Shown piece after piece: positions 418 to 30,533 of a DNA stretch of 43,477 bases. Each line of letters opens with the position of its first letter. Position 1 is the stretch's first letter. The stretch covers positions 1-43,477 of the forward strand of contig JACPQC010000022.1 of NCBI GenBank assembly GCA_016190695.1, read 5' to 3'. The notes under the pieces were generated by a model that was not told where the DNA came from, searched no databases, and saw only the letters and a program-made list of their open reading frames with translations. This DNA is from Chloroflexota bacterium. GTDB lineage: Bacteria > Chloroflexota > Dehalococcoidia > Dehalococcoidales > RBG-16-60-22. Position numbers and translations under genes: made by a program.

Positions 418-870
418 TTAGCTTAGCTTCGACTTTATATCCGCTTCAGATTCTTCGTTGAATATCGTATCAAGTAGATGCTTTGAACCAATCCCTTTAT
501 AAATCGTCTCACGCGTCTTTCTCCACGTTTTGTCAAATACGCTTGGCTTGTCAGTCCCGTCGAGATGGTGGTACGCCGCAGAGAATAAGTCCTGCATTTG
601 GCGACGAGAAGCGTAATCTAACAACAACTGATTATCTTCCCACCACATTATGGCTTTCTTAATAGAAACGTTTTTGTCGTCAAAGTTAAGTTTATTATCA
701 TACGTGTCGTGCCATATTCTATAGATTTGAGATAAGGCTTCTTGATGGGTATGTAAACGCTTCTCAAAAGTCATTACTCGGAATCGTTCTCTATTTTCTC
801 GCCAGTGTCTGAATTCACTTATACCAGCCCCAAGAACAACGCTAATTAAAGCAATAATCCACTCTGGCAT
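418..870 (-). CDS. hypothetical protein with N-terminal membrane segment
   Basis: A 150-residue protein of unknown function. I place the start at the ATG at 868-870 because the product then begins MPEWIIALISVVLGAG, a short hydrophobic segment of about 15 residues, and AGAGGTG lies 7-8 nt upstream. A longer upstream reading frame to 984 runs into repeat DNA and is unlikely to be coding. After the membrane segment the protein is charged and probably helical (FRHWRENRERFRVMTFEKRL), with Trp and Tyr-rich stretches, reminiscent of small anchored proteins that are common accessory genes; I recognise no family. The gene is distinctly AT-rich compared with its neighbours and sits between 16S rRNA and tRNA-Ile, pointing to acquisition. 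A TGnTAAAAT extended -10 (minus strand, plus positions 899-907) could drive it. Confidence 0.7.
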   Translation of the reverse strand: MPEWIIALISVVLGAGISEFRHWRENRERFRVMTFEKRLHTHQEALSQIYRIWHDTYDNKLNFDDKNVSIKKAIMWWEDNQLLLDYASRRQMQDLFSAAYHHLDGTDKPSVFDKTWRKTRETIYKGIGSKHLLDTIFNEESEADIKSKLS

Positions 871-1037
871 TACAACACCTCTATTTATGTTGTACGTTAT
901 TTTACCATAGGCACAATAGATAATATGCCTCACCCCCTTTGTCCCCCCTCTCCATTCTAAAACCCCCATAGACCCCCTATACAAAAGGGGGAGACTGATC
1001 AGTGAAAGACACAGGTGTAAGGGTTTGCACGGTCATC

Positions 1038-1174
1038 TTCTCCCTTTCGTAAAGGCCTGCCCTGAGCCTGCCGAAGGGGAGAGTTAGAGAGGGATTTTGA
1101 GATTGTGAAATCCCCCTTCCGTCCCCCTTTACGAAAGGGGGAGACTCTTCAAAACCTTTTTCAGCATCCTGCCC
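1038..1174 (-). repeat. MITE-like palindromic repeat, copy 1 (reverse orientation, interrupted)
   Basis: This stretch holds, in reverse orientation, the same elements as 6119-6247 and 14971-15115: an arm CCCCCTTTACGAAAGGGGG, the link GAAATCCCCCTTCCGTCC, the middle GAGAGGGATTTTGA and an end CTTTTTCAGCATCCTGCC. The second arm (TCTCCCTTTCGTAAAGG) is split by CCTGCCCTGAGCCTGCCGAAGG, a short motif that looks like a second repeat inserted into it. Together with 870-1037 (further G/C-tract arms at 980-993) this makes the 871-1344 gap almost entirely repeat DNA; I see no gene in it. Confidence 0.7.
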
Positions 1175-1183
1175 TGTGCCTTT

Positions 1184-1246
1184 CTGGATACCGGCTTTCG
1201 CCGGTATGACGTTGTTTCCTGTCATGCCGGTGGGAACGGCATCCAG
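1184..1246. repeat. 63-bp inverted repeat with CCGGTATGAC hairpin
   Basis: CTGGATACCGG at 1184 is mirrored by CCGG...CATCCAG ending at 1246, with inner GGTATGAC/GTCATGCC halves. The left half is itself a hairpin (ACCGGCTTTCGCCGGT). Related hairpins occur at about 13749-13770 (ACCGACGGAAGTCGGT) and 14934-14956 (ATACCAGCGAAAGCTGGTAT), so this is a dispersed intergenic palindrome family. Confidence 0.65.
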
Positions 1247-1344
1247 GATGGCGCTGCAGTGATCCTGCGCGGGGAACGATGGGAATAACGGCCGTGTGCC
1301 GCCGGTAGCGGCAGAGTGAGAACAGATAGGAAGAACTGTGGGGA

Positions 1345-1421
1345 TGGTGCGCCAAGGTAGACTCGAACTACCGACCTCCGCTTTATCAGAGCGGCGCTCT
1401 AACCAGCTGAGCTATTGGCGC
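1345..1421 (-). tRNA. tRNA-Ile(GAT)
   Basis: A complete 77-nt cloverleaf on the minus strand including an encoded 3' CCA. The acceptor stem is GCGCCAA/TTGGCGC, the D-arm GCTCAGCTGGTTAGAGC, the anticodon stem CCGCT/AGCGG around loop CTGATAA (anticodon GAT, isoleucine), and the T-arm GGTAG-TTCGAGT-CTACC. tRNA-Ile(GAT) is commonly found in 16S-23S spacers; here it is about 1.1 kb past 16S and on the opposite strand, with its own promoter. Confidence 0.97.
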
Positions 1422-1433
1422 GATTCAAGTTAT

Positions 1434-1462
1434 ATTCTAGAAGAAAACGCTCCTGGAATCAA
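1434..1462 (-). promoter_or_regulatory. sigma-70-type promoter for tRNA-Ile
   Basis: On the minus strand TTGATT (1457-1462) and TAGAAT (1434-1439) are separated by 17 bp, placing the start site about 6 nt before the mature tRNA 5' end at 1421. Good consensus and spacing, but predicted from sequence only. Confidence 0.65.
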
Positions 1463-1498
1463 GTTCCCTTACCTGTTTTCGCCACCAGAACCCCAATC

Positions 1499-2398
1499 TC
1501 AGGCGATGGGCAGAAAGACGCCGCCGCGGAGAAATAGATAGCGGAACATCACCGCGCCGATGGCCACTTCCACAACGTCAGCCACCACCAGCAGCCCGCC
1601 GCCGACTCCGCCGCCATAAGCGTTCACCAGGAAGACCACCACCGGGAAAATGAGACCGACGGCCAGGAACAGGCCGAAGAAGTACCAGGCATTGCGGCCC
1701 TCCATGGCCAGGAAACGCACTGAGCGCTGGCTGGCCAGGTTTACCCGGTACGCGCTCCAGAAGTAGAAGAACAGCAGGACAAGGGTGCTGATGCCGGTCC
1801 ATAGCGCCGCCTGGGTGATCACCGCCTCTTCCACGCCGGCCACCGGTGCGAAGTGGTAGACCAGGTGGGCGATGTCCGCCCCGGTGAAGATGGAGACCGC
1901 CAGGAACAGCACCGGCAACAGAGACTGGTTCCAGAAGGGCACTGCCGTCCGGTTGAGCAGCAGGCCGGTGTAGGTTATGGTCATGAAGGCGAAGATCACT
2001 GACAGCCCCAGCAGCGTTGCGCCGAAAGCCCCCTGTGAGGTCCAGGGCAGCCAGGAGAAGGCGGCATAGTCCGGCAGCAGGTAGGCCAGCGCGAACACGA
2101 CAAAGCCGGTGAAGAAGATGAAGCCGCGGCTTATCCAGGAAGAGTTTGGCCGCCGCACTGCGCGCCAAAAACGCTCGGGCCTGCCCAGAAAGAAGATGTG
2201 GGTGACGCCCTTGCCGATAGCCACGATGAGCACCCCGATGAGGGCAGCCCCGGCGAAGCCGGCCAGCAGGGACACCAGGTACAGGCCGGCGCCCACACCG
2301 CCGAAGTACAGCGCCAGCATTATGAGGAGGCGTCGCCCGCCCAGACCCCACTCCCTCTGGAAGGTGAAATCGACTACAAATGTCGAGGTCTGTACCAT
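1499..2398 (-). CDS. nrfD: NrfD/PsrC-type membrane subunit
   Basis: A 299-residue integral membrane protein of the NrfD/PsrC family, the quinone-interacting anchor of complex iron-sulfur molybdoenzymes. It has about eight hydrophobic segments (for example LLIMLALYFGGVGAGLYLVS near residues 24-43 and GFIFFTGFVVFALAYLLP near 91-109) and the family-typical FFLGRPERFWRAVRRPNSSW loop near residues 68-87. It is the last gene of the operon running from 5954 down, 9 nt after the ferredoxin subunit, with GGAGG ahead of the ATG. In this family electrons pass between the quinone pool and the ferredoxin subunit; direction (reductase or dehydrogenase) cannot be read from sequence. Gene symbol denotes the family only. 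Confidence 0.9.
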   Translation of the reverse strand: MVQTSTFVVDFTFQREWGLGGRRLLIMLALYFGGVGAGLYLVSLLAGFAGAALIGVLIVAIGKGVTHIFFLGRPERFWRAVRRPNSSWISRGFIFFTGFVVFALAYLLPDYAAFSWLPWTSQGAFGATLLGLSVIFAFMTITYTGLLLNRTAVPFWNQSLLPVLFLAVSIFTGADIAHLVYHFAPVAGVEEAVITQAALWTGISTLVLLFFYFWSAYRVNLASQRSVRFLAMEGRNAWYFFGLFLAVGLIFPVVVFLVNAYGGGVGGGLLVVADVVEVAIGAVMFRYLFLRGGVFLPIA

Positions 2399-2407
2399 TG
2401 CTGCCTC

Positions 2408-3010
2408 CTACTTAAGGTAATAGACCGATGGTTCAGTGCCGAACTCGGGTAGAAGCGGCTCGCCGCGGAACTCACGTATCAACCGAGAGACCTCGCTGTC
2501 AGGGTCATCCAAGTCCCCGAAGACCCTGGCCTTGGCCGGGCAGACTTCAACGCACATGGGCTCAAGTCCCTCATCCACCCGGTCGGCGCAGAAATCGCAC
2601 TTGGTGACCGTCCCCCTCTGCCACCTGCCGTACATCCTCTCCTCGTAAGGGGTCAGTCCCTTGGGGAAGTAACCTTCCACCTCGTCCATGAACACGCGGA
2701 TGTTGTAGGGGCAGGCCTGCATGCAGTAGCGACAGCCGATGCACTTGTCCTGGTCTACCGTAACAATGCCGTCACTGCGCTGGACGGTGGCCCCGGAGGG
2801 GCATACCTCAAGGCACGCCGGCGTCTTGCAGTGATTGCACAGCACCGGCCAGAATACCCTCTTGGCGGTGGGGAACGTGCCCACCTCCTTTTCCAGAACC
2901 TTTGTCCAGAAGACCCCCTTGGGCGTGCCGTTCTTGGCCTTGCAGGCCATAATACAGCTATAACAACCAACACACCTGGACAGGTCTATCACCATGCCCC
3001 GTCTTACCAT
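2408..3010 (-). CDS. ferredoxin-type electron-transfer subunit, four [4Fe-4S] clusters
   Basis: A 200-residue protein with four Cys groups: CVGCYSCIMAC (about residues 13-23), CNHCKTPACLEVCP (58-71), CIGCRYCMQACP (90-101), and CDFC plus CVEVCP (137-158). This is the DmsB/NrfC/PsrB pattern, which carries four [4Fe-4S] clusters and wires the molybdopterin subunit to the membrane subunit. AGGAGG precedes the ATG by 7-8 nt. It sits between the MoaD-like gene and nrfD in the same operon. No Tat signal is present; in this family the B subunit has none anyway and would follow its catalytic partner. Confidence 0.93.
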   Translation of the reverse strand: MVRRGMVIDLSRCVGCYSCIMACKAKNGTPKGVFWTKVLEKEVGTFPTAKRVFWPVLCNHCKTPACLEVCPSGATVQRSDGIVTVDQDKCIGCRYCMQACPYNIRVFMDEVEGYFPKGLTPYEERMYGRWQRGTVTKCDFCADRVDEGLEPMCVEVCPAKARVFGDLDDPDSEVSRLIREFRGEPLLPEFGTEPSVYYLK

Positions 3011-3049
3011 TTACTCAGCCTCCTAACTGTGACCTTAAGGCGGCACAGA

Positions 3050-3337
3050 CTATCCCGCCCCCAGCGCATGCATCGAGAAGAAATTGACCTCGCCGCTGGC
3101 GGGCCGGCCCAGGTCTCCGGCATCTACCTCATCCAGGCCGTCTTCCAGCACCAGGAACATCTTGCAGAAATGCATTATCCTGCCGTCGGCGTCCAGCACC
3201 TGGTCTCGGAAAGGCTCTCCATATTTCACCGCCAGCTTTTCAAGGAGAACGCCAACGCTGGTATTCTCGGGGACCTGTATCTCATCGTCACGCGGTATAC
3301 CGTTGAACCCGCCGAAGAAGCGCACCCTGACCTTCAT
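3050..3337 (-). CDS. MoaD/ThiS-like ubiquitin-fold protein
   Basis: A 95-residue beta-grasp protein of the MoaD/ThiS type (KVRVRFFGGFNGIP at the N-terminus, then a PENTSVGVLLEKL helix). MoaD carries sulfur as a C-terminal thiocarboxylate on Gly-Gly for molybdopterin synthesis. Here the C-terminus reads HALGAG, so the usual penultimate Gly is Ala. The ATG at 3335-3337 is chosen because the family N-terminus begins there and it lies 4 nt after the catalytic-subunit gene; the longer upstream frame is the antisense shadow of that gene. Being locked into the oxidoreductase operon suggests a dedicated role in cofactor delivery or maturation of that enzyme (inference), possibly for a tungsten or molybdenum bis-MGD site. 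Confidence 0.8.
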   Translation of the reverse strand: MKVRVRFFGGFNGIPRDDEIQVPENTSVGVLLEKLAVKYGEPFRDQVLDADGRIMHFCKMFLVLEDGLDEVDAGDLGRPASGEVNFFSMHALGAG

Positions 3338-3341
3338 CACC

Positions 3342-5954
3342 CTATTTGCCCTTCTCCTCCGCCTTCCGCACCCTGATCTTGATGCAGTTCTCGATGCCGC
3401 TGTACTGCTTGTCCAGGTACTTGATGTCGTGGGAGACCAGGACATTGAACTGGGTGCCTTTACCCTTGCTCACCGGATGGGAGTCCCAGTGGCCGCCATG
3501 GCGGCTGACCGCTACCACCTCGGGATGGATGCACTGTGTCAGCTTGACCTTGCCCCTCTGGGTATAGCCGGATACCGCCTCCACCACCAGCTCATCACCG
3601 TCTTTTATGCCCTGTTTGGCCGCCGTGTCCGCGTTCATCACCAGGTTCATGCCCCAGGGGTGATGCTCGGACAGCTCCAGCAGCCAGGGATTGCGGGTCA
3701 TCCAGAAATGGGTCAGCACCGGCAGCCGGAACGGTATGGCCACCAGGTCGTATCCCGCCTTGTTGTCGACAAAGGTGGCCGTCGGCTTCCACTCCGGCAG
3801 GGCGGTGTAGGCCGAGGTATCCCACTTGATGCCCTGGGCGTCGACAAACGCCCTTAGCTCGGCGCCGGCCTTGAGGTGGTGCTCGAAGTAGATGGGGCTG
3901 CGGCCTTTGAAGAAGGGGCGGGGGTAGCGCTCTTTGACCGAGCGGCGCCACTTGATATGTCCGTCCTGCGCCAGTTGCTCTACCGGCTTGTTCCAGACCC
4001 CTTCGGCGAAACGCCTGATTATCTCTTTGAAGGGATATTTCTTGTCCTCGTCGAGCCGGTACCCCTTGGGCAAGTCCCAGACTATGTTGACTATCCGGTT
4101 GTAGTCGGCCAGGAAGCCAGCCCGATCGGCGATCTCCATCCAGACATCCAGCATCTCCTTGCCGATGATCTCATTCTCGGGCACTACCGGCTGGCGGAAG
4201 TTCACGCAGTAGTGCGCATTGTCCATAGTGCCGCCCATATAGCCGTTTATCTCGGTACCCAGGCCGTGTCTCTCAAAGGACATGGGCATGGGAAAGAAGA
4301 TATCGGCAAACTCGGCGGTCTCGTCTACCATGGAGTCGCACACGATGCGGAACTGGTCTTTGCTGGCGCGGGCCGCCTCCTGCGGGTTCATCTGGTTGCT
4401 GATGTCGTTGCATCTGAATCCCAGCACCATCTTGGTCTTGGGAATCTTGTTATTGAACAACTCCGGCTGGAGCTGGTTCATGGCCCACAGGCTCTGCGTG
4501 CTGAAGGAGAGGGGTATCAGGTCCCAGCCGGTTCGGTCTCCCATCGTACCCGGCTTCAGCGAGGGGTAACAGCAGCTACGGGTACCGCCAAAGCAGCTAA
4601 AGGGAGAGGTTACTATCAGCCCTTCCTCGGACATACCGGGGAAGGCGCTCTTGCCCGACCACAAAGTGCGTTTGTCCTCAGGCTGGTAGGGGTAGTCCAG
4701 GATAACGTCATCGCCGACGGTGCCGCCAGGCACGTTGACCGCCCCGATGACCATCATGATGGTCTGCATGACGAAGCCCACCCAGTAGCCGTTGGTATGC
4801 TGGCTGACCCCGGTGTACCAGTGTATGGCGGCGGGGCGGTAGGGCAGGGTGACGCCCTCTATCTTGATGGTCGAGCCGATGCTGGCGGCCTCGCCGAACT
4901 CGGTGGCCAGGCGTCTTATCGTCCCCGCCGGTATGGTGGTTATCGGCGACGCCCATTCCGGCGTGTACTGCTTGACATGGTCCTTGAGCACCTGGAAGGC
5001 GGGACGGCAGGCGATGCCATTCACCTCATAGCTGCCCAGGATGGTCACATCTTTGAAATCGGCGTCAAAGGGCTTGGCCTTCTGCTCCGCCGCGTCCCAC
5101 ATCAACGGCTTCACCCCGGACTCGTCCCGGAGATAATAGCCATCTTCCTTGACCAGGTAGGGGGCATTGGTGTACTGCTTGAGGTATTCTTCGTCATAGT
5201 GGCCGGTCTCATTCAACAGCACGTTGAGCCAGGCCAGGGCCATGGCCATATCGGTGCCCGGCCTGATGGGCACCCACTCGTTGGCCTTGGCGCCCATATT
5301 CGACTGCACGGGGTCAACACAGACGATCTTCAAGCCCTTCTTCCGCCGTTTTTCGGCAATGTCCAGGGTGGCAGTTGTGCCGCAGTGCTGGAGCATGCCG
5401 CCCTTGTTCGACCCCCAGAGCACCAGGTAGCGGCAGTGCTCAATATCAGGGTACTGGTGGAAGGTGCTCATGGTGATGAAGGGCTGGCAGTGGACGGAGC
5501 TTCCGCAGACGGGGTCATTGAAGAAGAAGTTCTTGGTGCCGAAGGACAGCCTCACCGCCGCCGGCAGCCAGTCGAGTAGGGGCAGGTCGTTGAAGGAAAG
5601 CACGGCGTCATCCGGGTTCTCATTTCGGACCTCGGCCACCTTTTTGGCAGCCAGGTCATAGGCCTCTTCCCAGCTCACCGCCTTCCACTTGGGGTCAACG
5701 CCGATGCCCTTCTCCGGGTTGGTCCTCACCAAGGGAGTGGTAGGGCGGTAGGGGTCATACAGTCCCATTATCTGGCCGAAGGCCTTGGCGCAGATTTTAC
5801 CGGCGTTATAGGGGTTCTCCGGGTCTCCCTTGACGCCGACCACCACGCCGTCAACGCGGTGCACCATCAGGCCGCAGGTGGCATTGAAACAGCCGTGACA
5901 AAAGGTCTTGACCCAGACGTCTTCCTTGACCGCGCCCTTCTTGACCTGTACCAT
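3342..5954 (-). CDS. molybdopterin oxidoreductase catalytic subunit (DMSO reductase family)
   Basis: An 870-residue molybdenum/tungsten bis-MGD enzyme of the DMSO reductase superfamily. The N-terminus has the [4Fe-4S] motif C19-x2-C22-x4-C27-x27-C55. The molybdopterin domains follow (GKICAKAFGQIMGLYDPYRP, WEEAYDLAAKK, LWGSNKGG), with Cys150 in FNDPVCGSS a candidate metal ligand, and a C-terminal dinucleotide-binding domain (HPWGMNLVMNADTAAKQGIKDGDEL, near residues 765-790). A Cys ligand would fit the polysulfide/thiosulfate/arsenate-reductase side of the family, but substrate cannot be assigned. There is no twin-arginine signal, so it looks cytoplasmic. It is the first gene of a four-gene operon with a MoaD-like protein, ferredoxin subunit and NrfD anchor, driven by the promoter at 6038-6067. 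GGGAGGGG precedes the ATG. Confidence 0.93.
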   Translation of the reverse strand: MVQVKKGAVKEDVWVKTFCHGCFNATCGLMVHRVDGVVVGVKGDPENPYNAGKICAKAFGQIMGLYDPYRPTTPLVRTNPEKGIGVDPKWKAVSWEEAYDLAAKKVAEVRNENPDDAVLSFNDLPLLDWLPAAVRLSFGTKNFFFNDPVCGSSVHCQPFITMSTFHQYPDIEHCRYLVLWGSNKGGMLQHCGTTATLDIAEKRRKKGLKIVCVDPVQSNMGAKANEWVPIRPGTDMAMALAWLNVLLNETGHYDEEYLKQYTNAPYLVKEDGYYLRDESGVKPLMWDAAEQKAKPFDADFKDVTILGSYEVNGIACRPAFQVLKDHVKQYTPEWASPITTIPAGTIRRLATEFGEAASIGSTIKIEGVTLPYRPAAIHWYTGVSQHTNGYWVGFVMQTIMMVIGAVNVPGGTVGDDVILDYPYQPEDKRTLWSGKSAFPGMSEEGLIVTSPFSCFGGTRSCCYPSLKPGTMGDRTGWDLIPLSFSTQSLWAMNQLQPELFNNKIPKTKMVLGFRCNDISNQMNPQEAARASKDQFRIVCDSMVDETAEFADIFFPMPMSFERHGLGTEINGYMGGTMDNAHYCVNFRQPVVPENEIIGKEMLDVWMEIADRAGFLADYNRIVNIVWDLPKGYRLDEDKKYPFKEIIRRFAEGVWNKPVEQLAQDGHIKWRRSVKERYPRPFFKGRSPIYFEHHLKAGAELRAFVDAQGIKWDTSAYTALPEWKPTATFVDNKAGYDLVAIPFRLPVLTHFWMTRNPWLLELSEHHPWGMNLVMNADTAAKQGIKDGDELVVEAVSGYTQRGKVKLTQCIHPEVVAVSRHGGHWDSHPVSKGKGTQFNVLVSHDIKYLDKQYSGIENCIKIRVRKAEEKGK

Positions 5955-24652: not shown

Positions 24653-24964
24653 CTATCTTAACAGCTCCATCGTGGCATCGATAGCATCGGTCAGCATCCG
24701 GTGGTCGAAGAAACCGGATATCCTCGGCTCGCCGTCGATGAACAGCACCGGCAGGGGCAGAGCGCGGGCGCGGGCCATTATCTCCGGATTAGAGGCGCAG
24801 GCTTCAGTACTGGCAAGGTCCAGGTAACTGAACCGGGAGTCGGCGCCAAGCTGCGCCCTGATGCGCTCCTCGGCCAGTGACCGGGTGCTGTCCTCTGACC
24901 AGTCTACCCCGCAGCGGGCGTCGCATTTGCCTTCAGCGCTGTTGTCCACAATGACAATATCCAT
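24653..24964 (-). CDS. small thioredoxin-fold-like protein
   Basis: A 103-residue protein between trxA and trxB. Cys14 and Cys18 (CDARC) lie near the N-terminus, Cys at STEACAS later, and LPLPVLFIDGEPRISG near the C-terminus reads like the cis-Pro loop and beta-hairpin of a thioredoxin fold (YuzD/DUF1462-like order of elements). I would not name the family with certainty. The start ATG is 2 nt after the trxA stop, and it is 19 nt from trxB, so it is probably co-expressed and may be a specialised redox carrier. Unverified. Confidence 0.75.
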   Translation of the reverse strand: MDIVIVDNSAEGKCDARCGVDWSEDSTRSLAEERIRAQLGADSRFSYLDLASTEACASNPEIMARARALPLPVLFIDGEPRISGFFDHRMLTDAIDATMELLR

Positions 24965-24966
24965 AA

Positions 24967-25293
24967 TTACCCCAGGACTTCATCCAGGCTCCGCTTTAGC
25001 TCTGACTTGGGCCTGAAGCCCACGATATTAGACTGAGGTTTGCCCTCCTTGAAGATCATCAGGGTGGGGATGCTCATGATGCTGTACTGGGCAGCGATCT
25101 TCTGGTTCTCATCGACGTTCACCTTGGCAAAGTCGATCTTGCCTTCGTACTCGCCAGCCAGCTCGTCGACAATCGGCGCTACCATCCGGCACGGCCCGCA
25201 CCACTCCGCCCAGAAGTCCACCAGCACCGGCTTATCGGATTTCAGGACGACCTTGTCAAAATTGTCCTGGGTTACTGCGACTGGTTTACTCAT
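24967..25293 (-). CDS. trxA: thioredoxin
   Basis: A 108-residue thioredoxin with the active site EWCGPCRM (Cys31/Cys34) and the cis-Pro SIPTLMIFKEG. Standard length and fold. Its start (ATG at 25291-25293) overlaps the plsX stop by 8 nt, so the two are translationally coupled, an unusual partner. Downstream come the small redox protein and trxB. Confidence 0.97.
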   Translation of the reverse strand: MSKPVAVTQDNFDKVVLKSDKPVLVDFWAEWCGPCRMVAPIVDELAGEYEGKIDFAKVNVDENQKIAAQYSIMSIPTLMIFKEGKPQSNIVGFRPKSELKRSLDEVLG

Positions 25294-26272
25294 AATCTCC
25301 CTCCGCTATTTTCTGCTTTATTCCTCGTTCCACCGTGTCCTTGGCCAGCTTGATGGCGCTCTTGACCGCCCTGGCCTGGCTGCGCCCGTGGGCGATGATT
25401 ATGTCTCCCCCCAGACCCACCAGGTAGGCCCCCCCATATTCCCGGTAGTCTATTTTCCTCGCCAGGCCAACATCCTGCAACAGGTCGCGCCCCCGCAACT
25501 GTGACACGCTTGAGAATATCTGGCCCGCCTGCCGTATCAGGGTCAGAAAGCTGTCTGACATGCCTTCTATCGTCTTGAGCATGATATTCCCGGTAAATCC
25601 GTCGGTCACGATGACGTCCGCCGTCCTCTTCAGGATATCATGCGGCTCTATGTTGCCTATGAACTCAAAGCCATTGTTCTTCTTCAGGAGCTGGTAGGTC
25701 TCCAGTACCAGGTGGTTCCCTTTGTTCTGTTCGCTGCCATTGCTGAGCAGTCCCACGCGCGGCGTGCCCAGGCCCAGGATGTTCCGGCTGTAGATGGCCC
25801 CCAACTGGGCGAACTGGAGCAGGTGCCCGGGACGACAATCGGCATTGGCCCCGGCGTCTATGAGCAGGGCGGGCACCGTCGATATCGAATCCAGGAAGCA
25901 GCCAATGGCCGGCCGGTCTATCCCCTTCACCTTGCCCAGTTGGAGCAGTCCGGCACAGAGCACGGCCCCGGTGCTTCCCGCCGAAACAAAGGCGGCGGCT
26001 CTCCCCTCCTTTACCAGGTTCACCCCGACCACTATTGAAGAATCAGGCTTGTTCCGTACAGCCTTTATCGGCGATTCATCGCACTCGATGGTCTGGCTGG
26101 CTTCAACGATGCTGATGGACTTGTCCAGCGCCCGGCCTGCCAGCACGCGCAGGACGTTCTTCCTCCCCACCAGGGCTATTTCAACGCCATATTCCTGGGC
26201 CGCTTTCACCGCCCCCTTGACTATTTCATGCGGTGCGTAATCGCCACCGGCAGCATCAACGGCAATTATCAT
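25286..26272 (-). CDS. plsX: phosphate acyltransferase PlsX
   Basis: A 328-residue PlsX that makes acyl-phosphate from acyl-ACP for phospholipid synthesis. Recognisable are MIIAVDAAGGDYAPHEIV at the start, FVSAGSTGAVL, KGIDRPAIGCFLDS, LIDAGANADCRPGHL, GLLSNGSEQNKGN and DVIVTDGFTGNIMLK. I place the start at 26270-26272, where the family begins, with AAGGT upstream; an in-frame ATG at 26308 lies inside the preceding gene. No fabD/fabG/acpP cluster follows; instead it sits between an activase gene and thioredoxin. Confidence 0.95.
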   Translation of the reverse strand: MIIAVDAAGGDYAPHEIVKGAVKAAQEYGVEIALVGRKNVLRVLAGRALDKSISIVEASQTIECDESPIKAVRNKPDSSIVVGVNLVKEGRAAAFVSAGSTGAVLCAGLLQLGKVKGIDRPAIGCFLDSISTVPALLIDAGANADCRPGHLLQFAQLGAIYSRNILGLGTPRVGLLSNGSEQNKGNHLVLETYQLLKKNNGFEFIGNIEPHDILKRTADVIVTDGFTGNIMLKTIEGMSDSFLTLIRQAGQIFSSVSQLRGRDLLQDVGLARKIDYREYGGAYLVGLGGDIIIAHGRSQARAVKSAIKLAKDTVERGIKQKIAEGDYE

Positions 26273-26283
26273 TTTTTCAGACC

Positions 26284-27249
26284 TTAGCCAGCCGAGGTAC
26301 GCTCCCACATATCACACCGCCCGCCCCACCGGGCCAGCACCTTGCCATTGGTGGCTAGCTGGGCGATCTCGCACAAATTAGGGCACGCCTTGCACTCGAA
26401 CGAAGAAGTGCGGTACTGGATATCGCTGATGCCAAAGCCCCTGAATTTCGTGGAATCTGAATGGTCAGCCATCTCCTCGTGCGCCAGCAGGGCGGCCCCG
26501 ATAGCGCCCATGACCTCGTGGTGAGGCGGGATGATGATATCGGTCTTAAGCTCTTCCCTGAAGGCCTTTACTATACCCTGGTTGAAAGCGACCCCGCCCT
26601 GGAAGACTATGGGCGGCCTGATCTCTTTTCCCGAGGCGATGTTGTTCAGATAATTGCGCACCAGCGCCTGGCACAGCCCGTAGAGGATATCCTCGATGCG
26701 GTGGCCCACCTGCTGCTTGTGTATCATGTCCGATTCGGCGAAAACAGTGCAGCGCCCGGCGATGCGCACCGGCGTTTCACTGTCCAGGGACTTGTGGGAG
26801 AAGTCCTCAATGCCCATGTTGAGCCGCAGCGCCTGGTGGTCCAGGAAGCTGCCGGTGCCGGCGGCGCAGACCGTATTCATGCCGAAGTCGGTCACCACGC
26901 CATCCCTGATAATGATTATCTTGCTGTCCTGCCCGCCGATCTCCAGCACCGTCTGTACATCCGGTATGTAATGCAGGGCGGCGACGGCGTGAGAGGTGAT
27001 CTCGTTCTTTATCAGGTCGGCCCCCACAATGGTCCCGGCCAGGTAGCGGGCGCTTCCGGTAGTGCCCACGCCCCTTATCTCCACGTCCGCAGGCAAATGC
27101 CGCCTGACCTCGGCCAGCCCCTGCTGCACCTTGACTATGGGCTGTCCCTGGGTGGGCAGATAAAAGTCTGCTATCAGTTCGTCATTTACGTCCAGCGCGG
27201 CGACCTTGGTGGTAACCGAGCCGACATCAATCCCTAAGTAGGCTTCCAT
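26284..27249 (-). CDS. BadF/BcrA-type ATPase (acyl-CoA dehydratase activase-like)
   Basis: A 321-residue ASKHA-fold ATPase of the BadF/BadG/BcrA/BcrD/HgdC family. It has the phosphate-binding LGIDVGSVTTKVAALD (4-19), IGGQDSKII, NTVCAAGTGSFLDHQALRL (Cys of the bridging [4Fe-4S]) and VRIAGRCTVFAESDMIHKQQ (second Cys). A C-terminal extension has CKACPNLC and GGRCDMWE, an extra Cys group seen in multi-domain activase relatives. Such activases use ATP to drive low-potential electrons into 2-hydroxyacyl-CoA dehydratases or benzoyl-CoA reductases. It overlaps the upstream DUF2229-like gene by 23 nt and precedes plsX by 11 nt. Substrate enzyme unknown. Confidence 0.9.
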   Translation of the reverse strand: MEAYLGIDVGSVTTKVAALDVNDELIADFYLPTQGQPIVKVQQGLAEVRRHLPADVEIRGVGTTGSARYLAGTIVGADLIKNEITSHAVAALHYIPDVQTVLEIGGQDSKIIIIRDGVVTDFGMNTVCAAGTGSFLDHQALRLNMGIEDFSHKSLDSETPVRIAGRCTVFAESDMIHKQQVGHRIEDILYGLCQALVRNYLNNIASGKEIRPPIVFQGGVAFNQGIVKAFREELKTDIIIPPHHEVMGAIGAALLAHEEMADHSDSTKFRGFGISDIQYRTSSFECKACPNLCEIAQLATNGKVLARWGGRCDMWERTSAG

Positions 27250-28351
27250 AAGCCCTCCTCACGTTATTACAGGCCAGGCGCGCCCGCCGCCTCCGCTCCA
27301 GCAGGTCAACGAAGGCCTCCAGCCTGGTCAACATCCCCGCCTTCCCCATCTGCTCGTCACACAGGATGGTCAGCACCGGGATGTCCTCCTGGGTGGTCGG
27401 CATTATGTTCTGGGCCACTATCTCCGGCATGCAAGTGAACGGCGCCAGATGTATTATACCATCGTAGTCCTCTCCGGCGTGGAGCACCTTTTCCCCCACC
27501 GACTCCCAGCCCTCGCCGCCGACGTCGTGCTTGAGATAGGGCATCGCCGCCCGTTGATAGCGCTCTTTCTCATTTATACCCAGCGGATTGAGGAACAGGC
27601 TGAACTTGGTCCATTCAGAGATGAACGTGGTCCGCCTCACCTCAACCCCCAGCTTGCCCAGCTCCACCTCGACATCCAGGTTGGAGAACGGCTCGAGGAC
27701 AACGTAGAACTCGCCGATGACCCGCACCTTCAACGGATTGGCCCGGCTCTGCCTGGGGACAGCGTCCAGTTGCGCCAGGTAGCTCTTCTTTATCTTCTTG
27801 AGCGAGGCATAGTCATTGGCCCCGTCAATGGCTTCAATGGCGCTGGTATATAGCTCCTGGGCCGCGCCCTTGACCTGTTCCGCCGGCCTCACCTTCTGCA
27901 CCGAGCGCTCAATGGCATCCAGGGCGTGCAGCTTTGCCAGTGCAAACCGGAACGAGGTGATAAGCCTGTACCAGGAGGCGTCGTTGGAAAGCCGCTTTAT
28001 CATCTGCATGAAGCCGATCAGCTTGCGCTCCGAAACGCCAAGCTCGACGATTTCAGCGTTGTAGCCTATCTCCCGCAGCACCTGCTGCTGCACCTTGGCG
28101 TAGTAGCCCAGCCGGCAGATGCCGTTGCCGCCGGGCATGAGCAGTGTGTCCGCCCCCATCGCGGCGCATTCGATCAGGTTGCCCAGCGTCAGCTTGAACG
28201 GGATGCACAGCCCTTCCGGCGAGTATTTGGCCCCCAGGGACAGGGTGCGCTGGCTGTTGGAGGGCGGTATCACGTAGTCCACGCCCAGCCTTTCGAATAG
28301 TGTCTTCAGGGTAATGTGCAGATTGCCCATGTGGGGCATGCCTATGCGCAT
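27227..28351 (-). CDS. DUF2229-like, 2-hydroxyacyl-CoA dehydratase-subunit-related protein (B)
   Basis: A 374-residue protein (MRIGMPHMGNLHITLKTLFE...) related to its neighbour at 28342-29364: both begin with a KIGIPxxx/RIGMPxxx strand and end with a TRLEAFVDxxxRR motif, with an IxLAPFTCMPE / IGLVAFGCGPD pair in between. Cys in GLCIPFK, IECAAMG, GICRLGY and FTCMPE are candidate cluster ligands, as in the iron-sulfur subunits of 2-hydroxyacyl-CoA dehydratases. I recognise this as the DUF2229/activase-associated group. In some Clostridia the homologous modules are fused to activase domains in one very large protein; here they are split. Overlaps the activase gene by 23 nt. Function unknown. Confidence 0.82.
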   Translation of the reverse strand: MRIGMPHMGNLHITLKTLFERLGVDYVIPPSNSQRTLSLGAKYSPEGLCIPFKLTLGNLIECAAMGADTLLMPGGNGICRLGYYAKVQQQVLREIGYNAEIVELGVSERKLIGFMQMIKRLSNDASWYRLITSFRFALAKLHALDAIERSVQKVRPAEQVKGAAQELYTSAIEAIDGANDYASLKKIKKSYLAQLDAVPRQSRANPLKVRVIGEFYVVLEPFSNLDVEVELGKLGVEVRRTTFISEWTKFSLFLNPLGINEKERYQRAAMPYLKHDVGGEGWESVGEKVLHAGEDYDGIIHLAPFTCMPEIVAQNIMPTTQEDIPVLTILCDEQMGKAGMLTRLEAFVDLLERRRRARLACNNVRRAYGSLLRD

Positions 28352-29364
28352 GTTTCTTTCCGCCTCTTCTTTCTCCGCACCATGTCGACAAAGGCCTCAA
28401 GGCGGGTGACTATGCCTGCCTCGGCGGTGTGCTCCTCCAGGGTCAGGTTCATAAACGCCGCCGCGCCCGGCAGCGCCGAATGACGGCGCACCATGTCCAT
28501 CATCAGGGAGTCCGGGCCGCAGCCGAAGGCCACCAGGCCGATGACGCCGTCCACGTCATGCTCCAGGTAATGGCCCCCCGCCCCGACCACCTCGTATTCG
28601 TAGGTCCAGTATGACTGGCCCACCAGCCTTCCTATGCCGGAATCGATGGCCTCGGCGGCCAGCATCTCCGGGGTATGCACCCTGATGTTGTGCTGCTGCA
28701 GCCAGTTGATCAGGCGATGGCTTACATGGTGGTCATAGAGGATGTAAGGATGGCCGATCACGGCTATGTGCGCCTGGCCCGAAGCGTCGGCAGTCGGAAG
28801 CGCCTTTTCCTTGCTCGCACCCTTGCCTTCAGGCTCGGCTTCCAGGCCGAACATCCGCTCCAGCGCCTGCGGCGGCGTCAGTCCCTCCTCGACCATCAGG
28901 CGGCAGTATTCCAGGTGTTTCTGCCAGGCTGACATGGCCGCCTGCCGCACCTTCGAATGGTTCCGGGTGAAGTGCCGGCCCAGCCGGTCGATCTCCCGCC
29001 AAAGTTCCTTCTCTCCCTTGTTCATATCCACGTCAATCGAGAGTATGGGAGGGCATTCCGGGACCACCGCCCTGGTCATATCAGGCAGTCCCAGGAACTT
29101 GGAGCAATTGAACACCTTCGCCTTCAGGCTGCGTATGGCCGGAATAAAAACGCAGTCGCATTTTCCCACCAGGGACATGACGTGCCCCATGTAGGCCTTG
29201 GCCGGGAGGCAGGTATCGGCCACCACCCGGGATATGCCTGAAGAAAGAATGACCCTCGTGGTATGCGGAGATACGACCACCTCCGCGCCCAACTCCTCGA
29301 AGAAGTGCTTCCACATGGGATAATACTGGTAGTAGAGCAAGGCCCTGGGAATGCCGATCTTCAT
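28342..29364 (-). CDS. DUF2229-like, 2-hydroxyacyl-CoA dehydratase-subunit-related protein (A)
   Basis: A 340-residue paralogue of the preceding entry (MKIGIPRALLYYQYYPMWKHFF). Cys occur in ADTCLPAK, GKCDCVF, FNCSKFL, PECPP and FGCGPD; the N-terminal pattern is that of PF09989 (DUF2229) as I remember it. It ends VTRLEAFVDMVRRKKRRKET. It starts 4 nt inside the M20 gene end (ATGA, 29361-29364) and overlaps the second paralogue by 10 nt, so all are co-translated. The two may form a heterodimer like HgdA/HgdB (inference). Confidence 0.82.
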   Translation of the reverse strand: MKIGIPRALLYYQYYPMWKHFFEELGAEVVVSPHTTRVILSSGISRVVADTCLPAKAYMGHVMSLVGKCDCVFIPAIRSLKAKVFNCSKFLGLPDMTRAVVPECPPILSIDVDMNKGEKELWREIDRLGRHFTRNHSKVRQAAMSAWQKHLEYCRLMVEEGLTPPQALERMFGLEAEPEGKGASKEKALPTADASGQAHIAVIGHPYILYDHHVSHRLINWLQQHNIRVHTPEMLAAEAIDSGIGRLVGQSYWTYEYEVVGAGGHYLEHDVDGVIGLVAFGCGPDSLMMDMVRRHSALPGAAAFMNLTLEEHTAEAGIVTRLEAFVDMVRRKKRRKETCA

Positions 29365-30533
29365 TTTTGCGCCTCAAACTCCGCCCTGACCACGTTCAGC
29401 ATCGCCGGCGACGCCAGCAGGTCGGCCACGGTCATGGCCATGGCCTTGGCCCCGTCCAGCATCCCCTGGATGGCGGTCTCGGAGGTTGCCGCCTGGGCAA
29501 ATTCCGGGGAATGTATCAGCACCCCCGGCGGCACGATGGCCACCATCGGATGAATGCCGGGCACCAGTTGACTGACATTGCCCATGTCGGTGCTGCCGAA
29601 GCCTACTGCCGAACCGGCAGGCAGCATCTCCCGCCCCAGTAACTCCATGTTGCGCTCGAAAAGCTGGGCCAGGGTCTGGTTGTTGACCAGGGACGAGTAG
29701 CGCACCTCTGCCCAGCGGTATTCCAGCCTGGCCCCGGTAGCAGTGGCAGCCCCGGCAAAACAGCTTATAACCCTTTCCTTCAGCTCGTCAAGATAGCTGT
29801 CATTCTCGGCGCGCACCACGAAATTGCCGGCGGTATGCGCCGGGACGATGTTGGCTGCCTCGCCGCCGTCGGTGATGATGCCGTGAATGCGGCACCGCTC
29901 CCTGATATGCTGCCTCAGTGAGTTGATGGCGTTGAAAGAAAGCAGCATGGCGTCCAGGGCATTGATGCCTTCCTCGGGGCGGGCAGCGGCATGGGCCGCC
30001 CGGCCAAAGAACTCCACGTCCAGCGTCTGGCAGGCCAGGGATTGCACCACGGTGGCATTAGCCACGCCCGGGTGTACCATCATGGCCACGTCCACGCCGT
30101 CAAAACACCCCCGCTGCACCATCAGCGCCTTGCCCCCGAACAGCTCTTCGCCAGGCGTGCCCACCACCAGGACTGAGCCGCCAAAGCCGTCTACAGCGCG
30201 TTTGCTGGCCAGCCCGGCGGCCACCGCCATGGCGGCGATCAAGTTGTGCCCACAGGCATGGCCCAGCTTGGGCAGGGCATCGTACTCGGCCAGAATAGCA
30301 ATGACCGGCAGTCCCTCGCCGTACCTCGCTTTGAAAGCCGTCGGCATGCCACAGACGGCCCTCTCCACGGCCAGCCCGTTATCCTCCAGGTAATCGGCCA
30401 GCCAGGCAGCAGCTTTATATTCATAAAAGGCCGTTTCGGGGTTAGCATGTATTCTGAGGCTAAGCTCGGTGAGCTCACCGCGACGGGAATCTATGCCAGC
30501 CACGAGCGACTGCTTCAGTTCGTCAAGGTCCAA
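29361..30533 (-). CDS. M20-family amidohydrolase/metallopeptidase
   Basis: A 390-residue zinc amidohydrolase of the M20/AbgB-like group. Metal and catalytic motifs are HACGHNLIAAMAV (about residues 88-100), GTPGEEL, MVHPG and GFGSTDMGNVSQLVPG near the C-terminus. Substrates in the family include aminobenzoyl-glutamate, N-acyl amino acids and dipeptides. No ATG is suitable: the open frame continues into nusA antisense DNA, so I place the start at a TTG (30531-30533) with GGAG 8 nt upstream, which gives a family-typical length. First gene of the eight-gene run to trxB; a promoter lies at 30570-30598. Confidence 0.85.
   Translation of the reverse strand: MDLDELKQSLVAGIDSRRGELTELSLRIHANPETAFYEYKAAAWLADYLEDNGLAVERAVCGMPTAFKARYGEGLPVIAILAEYDALPKLGHACGHNLIAAMAVAAGLASKRAVDGFGGSVLVVGTPGEELFGGKALMVQRGCFDGVDVAMMVHPGVANATVVQSLACQTLDVEFFGRAAHAAARPEEGINALDAMLLSFNAINSLRQHIRERCRIHGIITDGGEAANIVPAHTAGNFVVRAENDSYLDELKERVISCFAGAATATGARLEYRWAEVRYSSLVNNQTLAQLFERNMELLGREMLPAGSAVGFGSTDMGNVSQLVPGIHPMVAIVPPGVLIHSPEFAQAATSETAIQGMLDGAKAMAMTVADLLASPAMLNVVRAEFEAQK

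Follow-up and report, generated by a model that had tools for sequence, protein, structure and literature searches.

A three-gene DUF2229/BadF activase set in Dehalococcoidia, a probable radical enzyme of the benzoyl-CoA reductase/2-hydroxyacyl-CoA dehydratase type with a single activase

Which protein accepts the electrons of a BadF-type activase that is encoded beside two proteins of the DUF2229 family? The question is raised by positions 1 to 43,477 of contig JACPQC010000022.1 (assembly GCA_016190695.1, a Chloroflexota bacterium of the class Dehalococcoidia), a stretch of 43,477 nucleotides (nt) that we call the window, in which an M20-family hydrolase gene (M20), two DUF2229 genes (DA and DB) and the activase gene (ACT) follow each other in this order on the minus strand, all overlapping (Table 1). 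In the original prediction it was supposed that, no dehydratase proper being present, the two DUF2229 paralogues may themselves be the target. We put at roughly 70% the probability that DA and DB form an ACT-driven enzyme of the benzoyl-CoA reductase/2-hydroxyacyl-CoA dehydratase (BCR/HAD) type, and the gene content of relatives suggests that ACT probably has a further partner.

The DA-DB-ACT-M20 arrangement is real and conserved. The coordinates of the open reading frames (ORFs) agree with the overlaps first described, which amount to 4 nt (ATGA) between M20 and DA, 10 nt between DA and DB and 23 nt between DB and ACT. In 18 loci of other genomes, mostly labelled Dehalococcoidia, DA and DB are always adjacent, ACT comes next in 17 (the contig of the remaining one ends there) and M20 lies directly upstream of DA in 15; the gene set is thus not a product of chance. 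This contiguity of DA, DB and ACT, and the occurrence of the same modules fused in one chain elsewhere, support their working as a single system.

Both DA and DB score above the cut-off of the DUF2229 family (PF09989), with 171 bits for DA and a weak 43 bits for DB, and they are full-length paralogues of each other (blastp 6.7e-8; profile-profile comparison 1.5e-20 over 304 columns). Their AlphaFold2 models (predicted local distance difference test scores of 75 for DA and 77 for DB) were compared with solved structures by Foldseek, where DA matched best the double-cubane cluster protein (DCCP; 7yyl and 6eno), with HadBC (3o3m) likewise at probability 1.00 and 3-methylbenzoyl-CoA reductase (9g87) at 0.99, and DB matched best HadBC (3o3m), followed by DCCP (6eno) and BzdNO (8s02), all at 1.00; template modelling scores were moderate (0.35-0.56), so that the fold class is secure and the details are not. 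On these models DUF2229 is here a catalytic-subunit fold of the BCR/HAD superfamily rather than part of an activase, and DA and DB would provide the two subunits of HGD-D fold that characterize the superfamily. At the sequence level, searches of the PDB with DA and DB returned noise only, except for a weak match of the DA C-terminus to DCCP, and neither protein matched PF06050 (HGD-D) above cut-off, the Pfam scan giving PF09989 alone; an assignment of either to the PF06050 dehydratases was rejected for this lack of a family match.

In the alignments, the set C52/C87/C282 of DA is present in 100% of 26 split (separately encoded) and 29 fused sequences, and the set C49/C79/C307 of DB in 100% of 24 split sequences and 97% of the fused set. 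In BzdO, a catalytic [4Fe-4S]-OH2 cluster is held by three Cys, 95/128/380 (PMC11971306), and the three-Cys sets of DA and DB are likely to ligate clusters as well. Because both proteins model as BCR/HAD-fold subunits with invariant three-Cys sets, the DA-DB pair is very probably the target of ACT; the paralogues thus look like the acceptors that had been suspected, and conserved candidate Cys ligands, whose lack would have spoken against them, were found in both. Some relatives have three DUF2229-type genes. An extra DB paralogue lies between DA and DB in L010 (7996-9063), L014 (7990-9057) and also L045, and in the place of DB in L013 (1845-2921); in L010, L013 and L014 it has no Cys at the position of residue 331 of the window DB.

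ACT itself is a BadF protein (168 bits against PF01869) whose C128 and C167 align with the bridging-cluster Cys of MbdQ (9gai_D), HadI (4eht), HgdC (1hux) and 7yyl_E, and it therefore carries the pair of conserved Cys that holds a bridging [4Fe-4S] cluster in ASKHA/BadF activases of the superfamily. The extra C-terminal Cys group reported in the original prediction was recovered as C286, C289, C293 and C312, invariant in 17 of 17 sequences, and this tail may bind a further cluster.

BCR/HAD family membership and the conserved residues suggest how the system could work. DA, DB and ACT would constitute a split ATP-dependent radical reductase (or dehydratase) with a single activase, in which an ACT homodimer would hold one bridging [4Fe-4S] cluster and use ATP hydrolysis to pass low-potential electrons, one at a time, from a ferredoxin-like donor to a heterodimer of DA and DB. 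With a [4Fe-4S] cluster on the three Cys of each subunit, this heterodimer would act on a carbonyl compound and reduce it via a ketyl-type radical. The substrate is a guess taken from the closest characterized relatives, PlsA and Ger: a membrane-lipid acyl ester leads the candidates, and we hold it tentatively.

These relatives are the large fused counterpart that had been mentioned, unnamed, for other anaerobes. DUF2229 occurs in 42 of 400 genomes of the phylum, in many of them within one frame of about 1,400 amino acids (aa) that profiles of the window families resolve as BadF1-BadF2-Cys motif-DA-DB. Plasmalogen synthase PlsA has the architecture Act1, Act2, Red1, Red2 (PMC12838417) and glycerol ester reductase Ger has two BadF domains (PMC13274423, PMC8788747); both make vinyl or alkyl ethers out of lipid esters, and plasmalogens or alkyl ethers are reported as products of their heterologous expression (PMC12838417, PMC13274423). 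Fused relatives were found in Listeria, a reported plasmalogen producer (PMC9702350), Paraclostridium, Haliovirga and Collinsella, and the DA and DB profiles match the corresponding parts of the fused proteins, that of Listeria included. Intermediate forms also exist, with DA-DB fused and ACT separate (L051), DA-DB fused without an adjoining ACT (L052, L053) or BadF1-BadF2-DA fused and DB separate (L050, L057), and in Monoglobus (Clostridia) a split set is likewise ordered DA-DB-ACT.

All split ACT proteins have the four-Cys tail, as do 97% of the fused Act2 domains but no Act1, and by sequence ACT corresponds to Act2 of the fused protein, Act1 being absent. In phylogenetic trees, where long branches and midpoint rooting limit statements on the root, the split DA sequences fall into a single clade opposite the fused ones (support 100/100), and split ACT forms one clade (100/92) that groups with Act2, apart from Act1. 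The split set is consequently an old parallel lineage rather than a recent break-up of PlsA or Ger. It shares with PlsA-PlsR and Ger the BadF domain with the four-Cys tail, Red1 (DUF2229), Red2 and the same conserved Cys, and differs from them in having one activase instead of two (a single BadF gene behind DB), in being encoded by three genes instead of one or two, in the order Red1-Red2-Act against Act-Act-Red1-Red2, and in the position of split DA outside the PlsA/Ger clade.

Could DA-DB-ACT nonetheless be a split Ger or PlsA that makes alkyl or vinyl ethers by reducing the acyl esters of phospholipids? The common modules, the Cys sets and tail found in both forms, and the ether products reported for PlsA and Ger speak for it, as does a radical S-adenosylmethionine (SAM) SPASM gene that adjoins split sets in two distant Chloroflexota; yet the split DA and ACT clades stand apart from all fused forms, Act1 is missing, several genomes carry both sets, and the SPASM neighbour is closest among solved structures to SPASM maturases, with no lipid synthase among its matches. 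We regard this identity as possible but lean against it. Moreover, Ger and PlsA are not distinguishable by sequence alone (PMC13274423), so that it would be unsafe to assign a definite product to DA-DB-ACT. The SPASM proteins in question (L039, 9339-10844; L053, 9499-11088) are 58% identical to each other, and their candidacy as a membrane-spanning lipid synthase was dropped, the best solved matches being maturases.

A double-cubane protein reducing small molecules, to which the best fold matches of DA (7yyl, 6eno) could point, is very improbable. DA and DB share the fold of DCCP and ACT has activase homology to its reductase, DCCP-R, but DCCP consists of two identical chains (PMC11971306), each with a double cubane, and here two diverged genes are found, of which DB matches HadBC best. 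A double cubane requires more Cys ligands per chain than three. DA and DB have only three fully conserved Cys each, in split and fused forms alike, too few for the [8Fe-9S] cluster of DCCP. The system is comparable to the 2-hydroxyacyl-CoA dehydratases (HadBC-HadI, HgdAB-HgdC) in its single activase, its two diverged catalytic subunits of the same fold and its three-Cys sets, from which it differs by the four-Cys tail of ACT, by the lack of a PF06050 match above cut-off and by the absence of PDB sequence matches of DA or DB to Had/Hgd catalytic subunits. Class I benzoyl-CoA reductase (BzdNOPQ, MbdONPQ) resembles the system in the fold of its activase and of its two catalytic subunits; unlike the system, it has a double-cubane subunit besides two activase subunits (PMC11971306). 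The scores of ACT fall far under the cut-offs of the BCR A/D and BzdQ families (119/578, 62/313 and 69/380 bits).

Several points weigh against the reading of DA-DB as an ACT-driven enzyme acting on lipid esters. Clusters, complex and activity are derived from sequence and models; the identity of the window DA to Red1 is only 24% for Listeria and 26-27% for Chloroflexota, and together with the separate clade this may mean a different substrate. The coexistence of split and fused sets (G019, G029, G081, G089, G170, G177, G194, G401) argues for a different job. In addition, plsX beside ACT, which might be taken as a sign of a lipid role, gives no such support and was dropped as evidence, since it adjoins ACT also where DA and DB are absent. 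The tail, finally, is found in nine sampled genomes without split DA, and the tail-less genomes all belong to one taxonomic order, so that the link between tail and DA may rest on one loss event.

These last points come from the distribution of the genes, for which family and profile searches were run on 119 genomes of the class, 24 of them with split DA and 37 with an intact ACT orthologue (counted by hand, including a partial one that extends into the tail). The tail is found in every one of the 22 genomes that have split DA and an ACT that can be assessed, and the six with a tail-less ACT have no split DA (Fisher p 0.002, kinship not corrected for). Five tail-less loci (L095-L099) belong to the order of the window organism, in genomes without split DA/DB, and their tail was possibly lost in a single event. 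As many as 15 of the 37 genomes have ACT without split DA, and in such relatives ACT needs another partner. Where DA and DB are absent the gene order is M20-ACT-plsX, ACT remaining beside plsX.

A candidate for this partner is a lone HGD-D protein of the window genome (G000), of 346 aa, encoded between gapA and eno (both named from their sequences) on contig C29 (54259-55212, L008; 8194-9234 in L133). It is kept in place in eight Dehalococcoidia genomes, with invariant C52, C78 and C282. DUF2229 is absent from three complete relatives of 1.4-1.5 Mb (G007, G020, G048), which have exactly one HGD-D and exactly one BadF protein, namely ACT, located beside M20 and plsX. Because the orthologue of the C29 protein is the only HGD-D and ACT the only BadF in these three genomes, ACT almost certainly works there with another partner and probably has a second one besides DA-DB in general, and the lone HGD-D, there the sole candidate of its fold, is most likely the protein that ACT would additionally drive. 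DA and DB look like the target of ACT, but HGD-D proteins do exist elsewhere in the genome. The possibility that the activase pairs with one of them, which had been foreseen as a point against the paralogues, holds in part, since the two HGD-D proteins on contig C21 have their own activase pair and the one on C29 has no adjoining activase. The C21 locus (460-4927; L001, L006, L007) is a separate benzoyl-CoA-reductase-like one, with a MaoC-like gene beside the two HGD-D and two BadF genes.

Perhaps the lone HGD-D of about 340 aa is even the main, ancestral partner of ACT in the class and DA/DB a secondary client lost in many lineages, an order of events that we slightly favour given the three complete relatives, the retention of this gene with its Cys and the many ACT genes without DA. 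Nonetheless, it is not linked to ACT in the genome, the genomes without DA/DB in the window's own order have a shorter, tail-less ACT, so that the DA-linked form may have switched partner, and the same data are compatible with DA/DB as a partner too. The fuller proposal has ACT feeding electrons, at the expense of ATP, to two radical enzymes that are not linked to each other: DA-DB as a heterodimer whose substrate is new and not that of PlsA, and a core HGD-D beside gapA and eno. As a whole it appears speculative and rather doubtful. If it is true, the core metabolism of the group would include an ATP-dependent radical reaction; some complete relatives keep only the ACT/HGD-D pair, and the pair being alone there makes this core function directly testable.

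DUF2229 is filed as an uncharacterized activase domain, and the evidence given here places it with the BCR/HAD catalytic subunits. DA-DB-ACT represents a lineage that runs alongside the enzymes for plasmalogens and ether lipids and has one activase instead of two, bearing on the published question of the role of PlsA-like homologues without activation domains (PMC13274423), and Dehalococcoidia genomes with the split set, the fused set, both or neither allow a comparison of ether lipids. DUF2229 itself is scarcely mentioned in the literature searched, and in the part covered no characterization of the split lineage was found, a prior description being possible; the type 1 mlp cluster was set aside, as it concerns another kind of activase.

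The M20 protein carries the Pfam M20 and M20 dimerisation domains, scores 228 bits against TIGR01891 (cut-off 154) and contains the metal-ligand motifs GHACGHN, PGEEL, MVHPG and IHSPEF, as read from the sequence; phmmer relates it to HmrA (3ram, 6.7e-80) and Xaa-Arg dipeptidase (7yh4, 4.4e-66). Its longest ORF extends further upstream, but relatives begin at the position of the TTG. The original prediction joined M20 to the activase system; a functional link could be read from the 4-nt overlap, from its place upstream of DA in most loci and from its proximity to DA in several more distant Chloroflexota. Yet relatives of M20 occur in 95 of the 119 class genomes, many without DUF2229, it adjoins ACT when DA and DB are missing, and split sets without a nearby M20 exist (L044-L046, L067). 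Because it is so widespread without DUF2229, M20 is probably an operon neighbour and not a component of the redox system; as a necessary part it was rejected on its distribution, and as a pathway partner supplying or processing the reductase substrate it is unlikely.

Table 1. Genes of the DA-DB-ACT locus and neighbouring features in the window
Feature	Description	Position	Strand	Length and basis
ACT	BadF activase	26284-27249	-	321 aa; ORF and Pfam PF01869
DB (Red2-like)	Diverged DUF2229/HGD-D fold, putative second catalytic-type subunit	27227-28351	-	374 aa; PF09989
DA (Red1-like)	DUF2229/HGD-D fold, putative first catalytic-type subunit	28342-29364	-	340 aa; PF09989
M20	M20D metallohydrolase, HmrA / Xaa-Arg dipeptidase (PM20D2) group	29361-30533	-	390 aa, TTG start
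plsX	Phosphate acyltransferase	25286-26278	-	Named from synteny and sequence
grx	Small thioredoxin-like protein, between trxA and trxB	24653-24964	-	

Beyond ACT follow plsX, trxA, the small thioredoxin-like gene (grx), trxB, rplI and dnaB, with nusA divergent, and the string ACT-plsX-trxA-grx-trxB-rplI-dnaB is conserved, the small thioredoxin-like gene occurring in roughly half the loci with this synteny. The same string, from M20 or DA to dnaB and with nusA divergent, was seen at about 55-79% protein identity in three metagenome-assembled genomes labelled Deltaproteobacteria (L015, L016, L017), a label that is probably wrong.

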